DNA from: Aminomonas paucivorans DSM 12260
Lineage (GTDB): Bacteria; Synergistota; Synergistia; Synergistales; Synergistaceae
Assembly: GCF_000165795.1 (NCBI RefSeq)
Contig: NZ_CM001022.1
Location: 186,001-250,000, forward strand
Direction of reading: 5' to 3'
Length of the DNA stretch: 64,000 bases
Shown here: piece by piece, positions 13,024 to 19,146 of the stretch
Layout of the letters: every line of letters starts with the position of its first letter
Position numbering within the stretch: the first letter of the stretch is position 1
The notes under the pieces: generated by a model
The model's input: the letters and a program-made list of their open reading frames with translations, nothing else
Databases searched by the model: none
Told to the model about the DNA's origin: nothing
Made by a program: the position numbers and the translations under genes

Positions 13024-13048
13024 CGCGTCTCCCCGGAGCGGATCCGGT

Positions 13049-13483
13049 CTACTTGTCGAACTGGACGTAGAAGAGTCCCTTGTCGTCCACCTCGCAGATG
13101 GAGAAGAGGACCTGCACCGGATCGGTCCCGGCGGGCTTGCGGTTTCCCAGGGTCCTGAACTTTCCGTCCACCACCCAGAGGGTGACGGCGTCCTTCTCCC
13201 CCCGGCCGTCCCAGACCGCGTCATCCGTTCCCTCGGCGTAGACGTAGAGGTAGCGGTTGGTCGTCTCGATGCCCTTCAGCGTGGAGAGTTCCCCGGGTTC
13301 GAAGACCCACCATCCCTCGGTGACCCACTGCTTCTGAGGGTTCAGGTAGTGCACCGCCACCGAGAGGGTCTGGCCGGAGCGGTTGGAGATCTGGATGGGC
13401 ACGGAGGCTCCCCATGCCGCCGTGGACAGGACGCAGAGGCAGAGGGTCAGGCAGAGGCGTTTCCAGACGTGGCGCACGGTCAT
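13049..13483 (-). CDS. Exported DUF1036 protein, copy 1 (intact)
   Basis: The 144-residue protein has a signal peptide ending near STAAWGA. A DUF1036-like domain follows: ISNRSGQTLSVAVHYL, then TEGWWVFEPGELSTL, then TNRYLYVYAEGTDD and a final VLFSICEVDDKGLFYVQF. DUF1036 proteins are small exported proteins of unknown function. This copy is complete and ends at a TAG next to the long hairpin at 12990-13023. A nearly identical second copy lies 1.9 kb away and has a frameshift near its 3' end. The pair brackets a low-GC insert, so the locus has undergone a recent duplication. Confidence 0.75.
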   Translation of the reverse strand: MTVRHVWKRLCLTLCLCVLSTAAWGASVPIQISNRSGQTLSVAVHYLNPQKQWVTEGWWVFEPGELSTLKGIETTNRYLYVYAEGTDDAVWDGRGEKDAVTLWVVDGKFRTLGNRKPAGTDPVQVLFSICEVDDKGLFYVQFDK

Positions 13484-14840: not shown

Positions 14841-15356
14841 TCATGTTGTAAATGGACGATTACGGGCAAGGGGGGGGAGAGCCCCTCCTTTGCCCGTTTG
14901 TGGCAACGGAATTACCCGCTCTACTTGTTGAACTGGACGTAGAAGAGTCCCTTGTCGTCCACCATCGCAGATGGAGAAGAGGACCTGTACCGGATCGGTC
15001 CCGGCGGGCTTGCGGTTCCCCAGGGTCTTGAACTTTCCGTCCACCACCCAGAGGGTGACGGCGTCCTTTTCCCCCCGGCCGTCCCAGACCGCGTCATCCG
15101 TTCCCTCGGCGTAGACGTAGAGGTAGCGGTTGGTCGTCTCGATGCCCTTCAGCGTGGAGAGTTCCCCGGGTTCGAAGACCCACCATCCCTCGGTGACCCA
15201 CTGCTTCTGAGGGTTCAGGTAGTGCACCGCCACCGAGAGGGTCTGGCCGGAGCGGTTGGAGACCTGGATGGGCACGGAGGCTCCCCATGCCGCCGTGGAC
15301 AGGACGCAGAGGCAGAGGGTCAGGCAGAGGCGTTTCCAGACGAGGCGCACGGTCAT
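14841..15356 (-). CDS. DUF1036 protein, copy 2, with 3' frameshift
   Basis: Residues 1-131 are almost identical to copy 1 (signal peptide, TEGWWVFEPGELSTL, TNRYLYVYAEGTDD). An extra A at about 14964 then shifts the frame, so VLFSIC continues as DGGRQGTLLRPVQQ and runs on to 171 residues, past the ancestral stop at 14921-14923. The conserved C-terminal strand (GLFYVQF) is lost, so the product may be non-functional. It could equally be called a pseudogene. A sequencing error in this position cannot be excluded. Confidence 0.6.
   Translation of the reverse strand: MTVRLVWKRLCLTLCLCVLSTAAWGASVPIQVSNRSGQTLSVAVHYLNPQKQWVTEGWWVFEPGELSTLKGIETTNRYLYVYAEGTDDAVWDGRGEKDAVTLWVVDGKFKTLGNRKPAGTDPVQVLFSICDGGRQGTLLRPVQQVERVIPLPQTGKGGALPPLARNRPFTT
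14863..14899. terminator. Imperfect hairpin terminator at the right edge of the insert
   Basis: CGGGCAA (14863-14869) pairs with TTGCCCG (14890-14896), continued by a G-rich/C-rich stem with mismatches, followed by TTT on the plus strand. It lies between the decayed gene and the convergent DUF1036 copy, overlapping the extended reading frame of the latter. Confidence 0.5.
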
Positions 15357-15550: not shown

Positions 15551-17239
15551 ATGGGCAAGAACGTGTTGGTGGTGGGGGGCGTGGCCTGCGGGGCCAAGGT
15601 GGCGGCTCGACTTCGGCGGCTGGACCCGGAGAGGACGATCCGCATCCTGGAGAAGGGGGACACCCTGAGCTATGCCGCCTGCGGCCTGCCCTTCCTGGTG
15701 GGAGGGACGGTGCCGGAGCTGAAGGACCTGATCACCACCCCCGTGGGGGTGGTGCGGGATGCCCACTTCTTCCGGGCGGTGAAGGACGTGGAGGTGCTCA
15801 CGGGGCACCTGGCCACCCGGATCGACCGGGCCGCCAGGGTGGTGACCGCCGTGGAGACCGCCACAGGGGAGGAGAAGTCCTTCCCCTACGATCAGCTGGT
15901 CCTGGCCACCGGGGCCTCCCCGGTCCTGCCTCCCCTCCCCGGGGCGGATCTGCCCGGTGTGACCCCCCTGTGGAACCCCTCCGACGCCCTTTCCATGAAG
16001 CAGGCCCTGGACGCGGGGTCCGTGCGGGAGGCGGTGGTGGTGGGGGCCGGACTGGTGGGGCTGGAGGCGGCGGAGGCTCTGGTGGAGCGGGGGGTGAAGG
16101 TGACGGTGGTGGAGCTGCTGGGGCACCCCCTGGCGGCCCTGCTGGACCGGGACTTCGGCGCTCTCATGGCCCAGGCCCTTCGGGCGGCGGGGGTGGACTT
16201 CCGTTCCGGCACCCGGGTGACGGGCTTCGAGGGGGAGAAGGGGGTCCTCTCGGGGGTGCGCGTGGAAGGGGAGGTGATCCCCGCCCAGCTGGCCCTGGTG
16301 GCCGTGGGGGTCCGACCCAACGTGCAGCTGGCCCGGGACGCGGGGCTGGAGATCGGCGCCCTGGGGGGAATCCTGGTGGACCGCCAGGGACGTACCTCCG
16401 ACCCGGACATCTTCGCCGGGGGGGACTGCGTCCAGACCTTCCACGCCCTCACGGGGGCCACGGTGAGGCAGCCCATGGGCTCCACCGCCAACCGGCAGGG
16501 GCGGGTCATCGCGGACAACCTGGCGGGGTTGGACACGCCCTTCGGCGGGGTGCTGGGCACCGCGGTGCTGCGTTTCGGGAAGACCACCGCAGGGCGCACG
16601 GGGCTTTCGGAGGAGGCGGCCCGGGAGGCGGGCTTCGACCCCGTGGGGGTCACGGTCACCAACGCGGACATCCCCCACTTCATGCCCGGCTCCGCCCCCC
16701 TGGTGCTGCGTCTCCTGGCGGATCGGTCCACCCGCCGTCTCCTGGGGGCCCAGGTGTTCGGCCCCGGCCGGGGGGACAAGCGTCTGGACGTGCTGGCCAC
16801 GGCCTGCGCCTGCGGGGCCACGGTGGACGTGCTGGCGGACGTGGACCTGGCCTATGCTCCCCCCTTCTCCTCCGCTCTGGACGTGGTGACCCACGGGGCC
16901 AACGCCCTGCGCAACAAGCTGGACGGGCGCATGGACTCCTGTTCCCCCTCGGAGCTTCGGGAAAGGCTGGAGGAGGGGGCGGTGCTGCTGGACGTGCGTT
17001 CCCCGTCGGAACGAAAGGAGCAGGGCACGCTGCCCTACGACGGGGTGGTCTCCATCCCCCTGGGACAGCTGGCGTCGCGGGCGGAGGAGCTGCCCCGGGA
17101 TCGGGAGATCGTGGCGTTCTGCAAGATCTCCGTGCGGGGCTGGGACGCCGTGGGGATCCTGAAGGGCAAGGGGTTCCGCCGGATCTCGGTGCTGGAGGGA
17201 GGGGTGGTGGGCTGGCCCTACGGGCTGGTCCGGGAGTAG
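15551..17239 (+). CDS. CoA-disulfide/persulfide reductase with C-terminal rhodanese domain (CoADR-Rhd)
   Basis: The 562-residue flavoprotein has an N-terminal FAD motif (VLVVGGVACGAKVAARL), the redox Cys44 in SYAACGLPFLV, an NAD(P)H motif (VVVGAGLVGLEAAEAL) and a dimerisation domain. A rhodanese domain starts at about residue 464 (LLDVRSPSERKEQ) with its active Cys524 in FCKIS. Enzymes of this architecture reduce CoA disulfide, CoA persulfide or polysulfide with NAD(P)H. The start ATG at 15551 follows GGAGG. The operator-like palindrome just upstream and the downstream TauE-like exporter and thioredoxin-fold gene support a role in sulfane-sulfur homeostasis (inference). Confidence 0.9.
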   Translation: MGKNVLVVGGVACGAKVAARLRRLDPERTIRILEKGDTLSYAACGLPFLVGGTVPELKDLITTPVGVVRDAHFFRAVKDVEVLTGHLATRIDRAARVVTAVETATGEEKSFPYDQLVLATGASPVLPPLPGADLPGVTPLWNPSDALSMKQALDAGSVREAVVVGAGLVGLEAAEALVERGVKVTVVELLGHPLAALLDRDFGALMAQALRAAGVDFRSGTRVTGFEGEKGVLSGVRVEGEVIPAQLALVAVGVRPNVQLARDAGLEIGALGGILVDRQGRTSDPDIFAGGDCVQTFHALTGATVRQPMGSTANRQGRVIADNLAGLDTPFGGVLGTAVLRFGKTTAGRTGLSEEAAREAGFDPVGVTVTNADIPHFMPGSAPLVLRLLADRSTRRLLGAQVFGPGRGDKRLDVLATACACGATVDVLADVDLAYAPPFSSALDVVTHGANALRNKLDGRMDSCSPSELRERLEEGAVLLDVRSPSERKEQGTLPYDGVVSIPLGQLASRAEELPRDREIVAFCKISVRGWDAVGILKGKGFRRISVLEGGVVGWPYGLVRE

Positions 17240-17824: not shown

Positions 17825-18595
17825 TTACAAACCGTTGAACCACCCGGGGGCTTGCCAGAGCATCTGCAGGGCGCTGGCCCCTGCGGCGAGCCCCAGGGCC
17901 CGGCGGATCCAGGGGTTCCCCTTGCTCACCGAGGCCCGGGCTCCCAGGACGGCCCCCACCATGCTCCCTCCCGCCAGGACCAGTCCCACAGGGAGGTTCA
18001 CCAGGTCCGCCCGGAGGAAGAGGGCCAGGCTGGCCAGGGTGTAGCACCCCACCAGGACGGTGCGGACCCCGTTGCTGCGCACCAGATCCATCCCCCCCGC
18101 CCCCACCAGGGCCCAGGAGAGGACGATCCCCACCCCCGCCTGGAGGAAGCCCCCGTAGGCCCCCGCGAGGAAGAGGGCGGCGAAGACCCCTGCGGGGGAG
18201 GCGGGGGTGTGGCGGGGGGTCTCCCAGAGGGAGGGGCGGAAGAGCAGGGAGAGGGCCAGGAGGAGGATGATCGCCCCCGCCACCGGGGACAGGGCCTCCC
18301 GGGGGAGGCGCAGCACCCCCAGGGTCCCGCAGAGGGCTCCCAGGGTGGCGGGGACGGCCAGGCGGAAGGCCCGGCGCAGGGGGAGCAGCCCTTCGCGCCG
18401 GAAGGCCCAGGCTCCGGCGACGCTCTGGAGGAGGATGGCCACCCGATTGGTGCCGTTGGCCACCGCGAGATCCAGCCCCAGCAGGGTCAGCAGGGGGAGG
18501 GTGAGCAGGGTGCCCCCGGCGGCCAGGGTGTTCAGAAACCCGGAGAGGACCCCCAGCAGGAAGATCCCCGCCAGGATCCAGGGAGAAGGGAGCAT
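17825..18595 (-). CDS. TauE/SafE (TSUP) family membrane exporter
   Basis: The 256-residue protein has about eight hydrophobic segments and the family signatures GFLNTLAAGGTLLTLPLL with NGTNRVAILLQS in the first half, and GGFLQAGVGIVLSWALV with the related SNGVRTVLV in the second half. TSUP proteins are associated with export of sulfite, sulfoacetate or related organosulfur anions, or thiosulfate/sulfane movement. The ATG at 18595 follows AAGGAGG with good spacing, so the long open frame upstream is not coding. It is placed 62 bases after the selenoprotein-like gene on the same strand, with an imperfect hairpin between them, and likely belongs to the same transcription unit. Confidence 0.85.
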   Translation of the reverse strand: MLPSPWILAGIFLLGVLSGFLNTLAAGGTLLTLPLLTLLGLDLAVANGTNRVAILLQSVAGAWAFRREGLLPLRRAFRLAVPATLGALCGTLGVLRLPREALSPVAGAIILLLALSLLFRPSLWETPRHTPASPAGVFAALFLAGAYGGFLQAGVGIVLSWALVGAGGMDLVRSNGVRTVLVGCYTLASLALFLRADLVNLPVGLVLAGGSMVGAVLGARASVSKGNPWIRRALGLAAGASALQMLWQAPGWFNGL

Positions 18596-18657: not shown

Positions 18658-19146
18658 TCAGCGGAGGACCTTGTCCAGCTCCCGGGTCAGTTCCTCCTTG
18701 GACATGAGCCCCAGGAAGGTGCGGACCACCTTGCCCTTCCGGTCCGTCAGGACGCTGAAGGGGACCCCCTCCACGGCGAAGGCCTCGTAGAGAGCGTCCT
18801 TGGCGTCCCGGTAGCCCGGGATGGAGGGGACCTTCCACCGGGCCAGCATGGCGCGGGAGAGGACCTTGGGAGATCCCGAGGGGGTCACCCCCAGGACGGT
18901 CAGCTTCGCGGGGGGGTAGGAGGAGCGCAGGGATTCGAGCAGGACCAGCTCGTCTCGGCAGTAGGGTCAGGTGGGGGTGAAGAAGACCAGCAGGGCGGGT
19001 TTGCCCGCCAGGGAGGCCGTGGAGAGGGCCACTCCCTCTCCCAGGGGCTCCAGGGTGGCCTGAGGCAGGGTCTTGGGGGCCGCCCAGGCCAGGGAGGCCA
19101 GGGTCAGGAGCAACCATACCGCGAGGGGAAGCCTGCTTCGTTTCAT
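18658..19146 (-). CDS. Thioredoxin-fold selenoprotein (TlpA-like), UGA at codon 60 read as selenocysteine
   Basis: A signal peptide (MKRSRLPLAVWLLLTLASLAWA) leads into PALLVFFTPT. A TGA at 18967-18969 follows, and the same frame then continues without a break through PYCRDELVLLESL to GVPFSVLTDRKGKVVRTFLG and a stop at 18658. The TGA falls where the first Cys of a thioredoxin-type C-P-Y-C motif belongs, giving U-P-Y-C (Sec60, Cys63). The second half has the cis-Pro motif (EGVPFSV) of a thioredoxin fold and cannot stand alone without the active site. A SECIS-like hairpin follows the UGA. Read-through gives 162 residues, a normal length for an exported TlpA/ResA-like protein. Alternatives are a nonsense mutation of TGC/TGT or a sequencing error. 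Confidence 0.75.
18936..18952 (-). promoter_or_regulatory. Bacterial SECIS-like hairpin downstream of in-frame UGA
   Basis: In the mRNA, CGAGC and GCUCG pair (5 bp) around the loop UGGUCCU, which starts 19 nucleotides after the UGA. Bacterial SECIS elements have a short stem with a G in the first two loop positions at about this distance; the GGU here fits. The stem is short and its lower extension has mismatches. Confidence 0.6.

Follow-up and report, generated by a model that had tools for sequence, protein, structure and literature searches.

A predicted exported thioredoxin-like protein of Aminomonas paucivorans with a very probable selenocysteine as its first catalytic residue

The locus

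The window analysed here is a stretch of 64,000 nucleotides from Aminomonas paucivorans DSM 12260 (contig NZ_CM001022.1, positions 186,001 to 250,000 of the forward strand), and all positions below refer to it unless another genome is named. On its minus strand lies a frame of 162 codons that contains a single in-frame TGA and no further stop or frameshift (Table 1). Translated from 19146 to 18658 with TGA as U, the frame reads MKRSRLPLAVWLLLTLASLAWAAPKTL...LVFFTPT-U-PYCRDEL...GVPF...DKVLR-stop; the terminal stop is itself a TGA (18660-18658, minus strand), and a Shine-Dalgarno sequence, AAAGGAGG, can be read upstream of the ATG.

The preliminary description of this DNA had claimed that the frame is continuous across the TGA, that the 162 codons show no other sign of decay and that the UGA takes the place of the first redox Cys (U-P-Y-C), and our analysis bears out all three; it also supplies the strand, which that description did not give. 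A Pfam Redoxin match spans the TGA (residues 25-159, 41.1 bits with a cut-off of 26.6), an AhpC-TSA match also runs across it above its cut-off (38.0 bits), and homologues have TGA or Cys at the site. The protein has, in other words, a Redoxin (PF08534) or AhpC-TSA (PF00578) domain above the gathering score together with a UxxC motif (UPYC). The coding signal agrees: of the 209 TGAs in the window with 40 open codons both before and after them, this one ranks first by the codon usage of those flanks, its lower score being 0.22 and that of the runner-up 0.01.

Table 1. Features of the locus, with positions in the window
Feature	Position	Strand	Remarks
Predicted selenoprotein gene, 162 codons + TGA stop	18658..19146	-	signal peptide + ResA/TlpA-like thioredoxin domain with UxxC
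In-frame TGA (putative Sec-UGA), codon 60	18967..18969	-	replaces first active-site Cys
bSECIS-like hairpin CGAGCUGGUCCUGCUCG	18936..18952	-	five outer pairs, U.U mismatch, G-C closing pair, loop GUC, conserved G-U
Probable signal peptide MKRSRLPLAVWLLLTLASLAWAA, residues 1 to about 23	19078..19146	-	read by eye; model helix 6-17
Second active-site Cys of UPYC, codon 63	18958..18960	-	invariant in 18 homologues
cis-Pro candidate, Pro129 of GVPF	18760..18762	-	invariant in 18 homologues
TauE/SafE-family permease gene	17825..18595	-	downstream, 62 nt gap; PF01925, 133 bits

The permease gene downstream may be cotranscribed with the predicted selenoprotein gene, as its operon partner. Among the relatives compared we saw no conservation of the gene neighbourhood, the TauE linkage included: the host has TauE and NudC as neighbours, one relative (G016) has a rubrerythrin gene nearby, and another (G059) has a tandem paralogue and DUF1847. 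Scanning the surroundings of the gene for promoters and terminators found nothing, and an Rfam scan of the whole window gave no match.

Elsewhere in this part of the window, a flavoprotein resembling CoA-disulfide reductase, with a C-terminal rhodanese domain, is encoded near the predicted selenoprotein gene, at 15608-17236. A DUF1036 gene is duplicated (13044-13391 and 14916-15264; 98% over 300 nt, spacing 1873), and its copies flank an island of 43-46% G+C within a region of 65-75% G+C, an arrangement that looks like an insertion with duplication.

Fold and predicted chemistry

In the AlphaFold2 model of the protein (mean pLDDT 91.2) the UPYC site opens a helix, residues 61-72. The best match of the model in the PDB is ResA (E 2.1e-12, TM 0.89 by target length), and it is followed by other ResA, DsbF and CcmG entries; a sequence profile search agrees. 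Structure match and profile search together support a ResA/TlpA fold, as the preliminary description had supposed in calling the protein a TlpA-like thioredoxin. Three residues past the second Cys stands a glutamate, E66, that does not vary among the five closest sequences. On this model the protein likely carries out thiol-disulfide oxidoreductase chemistry, with a selenol nucleophile at position 60 and Cys63 as the resolving thiol; it may act on disulfides, peroxides or another substrate.

Homologues and selection

We surveyed 188 Synergistota genomes for homologues, among which a small orthologous set stands out. Within this set the codon equivalent to codon 60 is TGA in four genomes, the host G000 and its relatives G016, G059 and G067, with no TGA elsewhere in the gene; it encodes Cys (TGT or TGC) in G041, in G058 and in a tandem second copy of G059. 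These four TGA-bearing sequences are the only ones known, and two of them come from one genus. Outside the orthologous set the survey returned ResA/TlpA-like proteins with CPxC, at lower scores. Across 18 homologues G48, C/U60, P61, C63 and P129 are invariant, and a tRNA-Sec was detected in all of the TGA-bearing genomes. The pattern by which bacterial selenoproteins are recognised, a conserved in-frame UGA aligned with Cys in homologues, is what we find here.

The two TGA-bearing species of one genus, G059 and G067, allow selection to be compared on either side of the TGA. Over the 64 codons before it dN/dS is 0.193/1.02, and over the 103 codons after it 0.139/0.72, a ratio of about 0.19 both times. 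Since the ratio in this pair is so low, the part after the TGA is under purifying selection as protein, unlike a pseudogene. In a tree of the Sec and Cys forms the branching was not resolved, so that single and multiple origins of Sec cannot be told apart from it. In the same genus a second copy, free of internal stops, lies immediately behind the Sec form, giving a tandem Sec/Cys thioredoxin pair (L005 1420-2662 in G059, G067:C2:334761-336135); the Cys of the second copy is confirmed in G059.

The hairpin after the UGA

The UGA is followed by a SECIS-like hairpin, C-GAGC-U-G-GUC-C-U-GCUC-G, which starts 14 nt after it and carries the GU of its loop at 21 nt. In the published bSECIS model a stem of 4-16 bp carries an apical loop of 3-9 nt with a G within the first two positions, the loop lies 16-37 nt from the UGA, and the energy is at most -7.5 kcal/mol (PMC13188914). 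All four TGA genes satisfy this model, and they do so in the same register, in which columns 18-24 pair with columns 28-34 and enclose a GU(U/C) loop at 21 nt from the UGA. The TGA forms make 6-7 of the 7 pairs, with 92.9% of cells paired, a share that sliding the partner lowers to 39% or less, and double changes are seen at two of the seven pairs (C-G/G-C at 18-34 and 24-28). The Cys forms make 4-5 of the 7 pairs in this register and have loops ACG or AAA instead of GU.

Taken alone, the hairpin is weak evidence for Sec. The window is rich in G+C, and 48% of its TGAs satisfy the loose bSECIS model, 27% a stricter one; of the synonymous recodings of the gene, 77% fold at least as stably. Because the folding-energy recoding test is not significant, we used instead the register shared across the four genes. 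A synonymous recoding reaches the same number of register pairs with a probability of 0.125 for the present gene, 0.009 for G016, 0.026 for G059 and 0.18 for G067, and a Fisher combination over the three independent lineages gives, by our own arithmetic, p of about 0.002 to 0.01. This result is suggestive, while not being decisive alone; the shuffle control (63 of 500) is also a weak one with four sequences.

Selenocysteine machinery

The host genome, a single contig of 2.63 Mb, contains all four of selA, selB, selC and selD, the genes for which the preliminary description had proposed to look. selC scores 82 bits with a cut-off of 47, and ARAGORN calls it tRNA-SeC; selA (545 bits) adjoins selB (350 bits); and selD (328 bits) has an in-frame TGA of its own, in the context TSG-U-AAK. 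The glycine reductase gene grdA has one too, in the context CFV-U. The in-frame TGAs of selD and grdA are strong indirect evidence that the organism decodes UGA as Sec. The Synergistetes have been described as a selenoprotein-rich phylum, in which 13 of 14 organisms use Sec (PMC5029168).

Discussion

Our analysis indicates that the UGA is very probably decoded as Sec, and that the gene encodes a presumably exported oxidoreductase of ResA/TlpA type with Sec as its first catalytic residue. The case rests mainly on the alternation of TGA and Cys among homologues, on selection on both sides of the TGA and on the Sec machinery of the genome. One could suppose instead that a nonsense mutation has recently made a pseudogene of a Cys-thioredoxin, and a single substitution, from TGC or TGT to TGA, would suffice. 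However, four genomes have TGA at this codon and no other one interrupts the gene, dN/dS between two TGA-bearing relatives is equally low before and after it, no other decay is seen, and the host decodes Sec. Given these comparative data a pseudogene is strongly disfavoured, and we consider it very improbable.

An error of sequencing or assembly at the TGA also turns on one base, but the same TGA stands in four separately assembled genomes, each time beside a SECIS-like hairpin, which leaves such an error with a negligible probability. Finally, some amino acid other than Sec (near-cognate Trp or Cys) might be inserted at the UGA, or the UGA might act as a regulated stop. That the hairpin is individually weak speaks for this possibility, whereas the homologues have Cys, not Trp, at the site, the gene's own terminator is TGA, so that UGA is not a general sense codon, and the genome has a complete Sec system; we give it next to no weight.

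How would a protein decoded with Sec work? The hairpin would bring SelB and Sec-tRNA to the UGA, the Sec-tRNA being formed by SelA and SelD from the selC tRNA, and Sec insertion would yield a protein of 162 residues rather than a fragment of 59. Once exported, the protein would use the selenol of residue 60 to attack its substrate, a disulfide or some other oxidised compound; Cys63 would resolve the selenyl-sulfide, and an electron donor would then regenerate the enzyme. What the sequences show is the continuous frame, the conserved TGA/Cys site, the Sec machinery, the purifying selection around the TGA in two relatives and, by prediction, the fold; Sec insertion, export, the redox direction, the substrate and the donor are inferred.

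As to the donor, neither DsbD_TM/CcdA (PF02683) nor VKOR was detected in the genome. Two ArsG-type permeases (DsbD_2, PF13386), with Cys-Pro motifs in both halves, are encoded at G000:C1:103482-104033 and 917056-917610, one of them reaching the ArsG cut-off and the other falling just short, and they are possible electron donors. A further step would be to place the protein in a subfamily of its own, made up of exported Sec-thioredoxins of the Synergistota that are fed by an ArsG-type (DsbD_2) permease or work together with the adjacent TauE/SafE permease; we think this unlikely. To our knowledge, such a permease-linked redox route has not been described for selenoproteins.

Standard callers would split this gene or label it a pseudogene, which the reading as a selenoprotein corrects; the same reading gives a selenoprotein-rich phylum one more enzyme of UxxC type, predicted to be exported. 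Moreover, it provides a small set of Sec/Cys pairs, including the tandem pair in one genus, with which the contribution of selenium to an extracytoplasmic thioredoxin could be probed.

Catalogues of selenoproteins already list UxxC proteins of Redoxin and Prx-like thiol:disulfide oxidoreductase kinds, and of thiol:disulfide interchange and thiol-disulfide isomerase-like kinds (PMC13188914, PMC9312934). By their naming rule, domain plus Sec motif, the predicted protein falls under Redoxin/UxxC. Where the preliminary description spoke of a probable new selenoprotein, the reading as a selenoprotein is supported and the word 'new' has to be taken more narrowly, since UxxC selenoproteins of redoxin/TlpA-like kind are catalogued (PMC13188914, PMC9312934). 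None of the NCBIfam selenoprotein models reaches its cut-off on this protein, which for that reason would be a subfamily without an NCBIfam model of its own, and it is credible that we are dealing with an unnamed member of this known UxxC kind. We also considered NF053656, the 'TUGYCR motif thioredoxin fold (seleno)protein', whose T-U-x-Y-C-R string resembles the TUPYCR found here; membership was rejected at 12.6 bits with a cut-off of 100.

Matched on domain and motif, the catalogued Redoxin (PF08534) and Prx-like (PF00578) UxxC selenoproteins share with our protein the same Pfam families and the UxxC. The thiol-disulfide isomerase-like selenoprotein (cd02966, UxxC; PMC13188914), compared by its description, likewise has a TlpA/ResA-like domain with Sec first in the motif. 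Among the Cys enzymes, ResA, TlpA and CcmG (DsbE) have in common with the protein the fold, the position of the CxxC and the cis-Pro, but they carry a first Cys where it has Sec; identity to ResA is about 20-23%, and the NCBIfam cut-offs for ResA, TlpA and DsbE are missed (35.8 vs 170, 26.1 vs 230 and 23.4 vs 123 bits). Judged by spacing only, the C74-C77-E80 of ResA corresponds to U60-C63-E66 of the protein described here.
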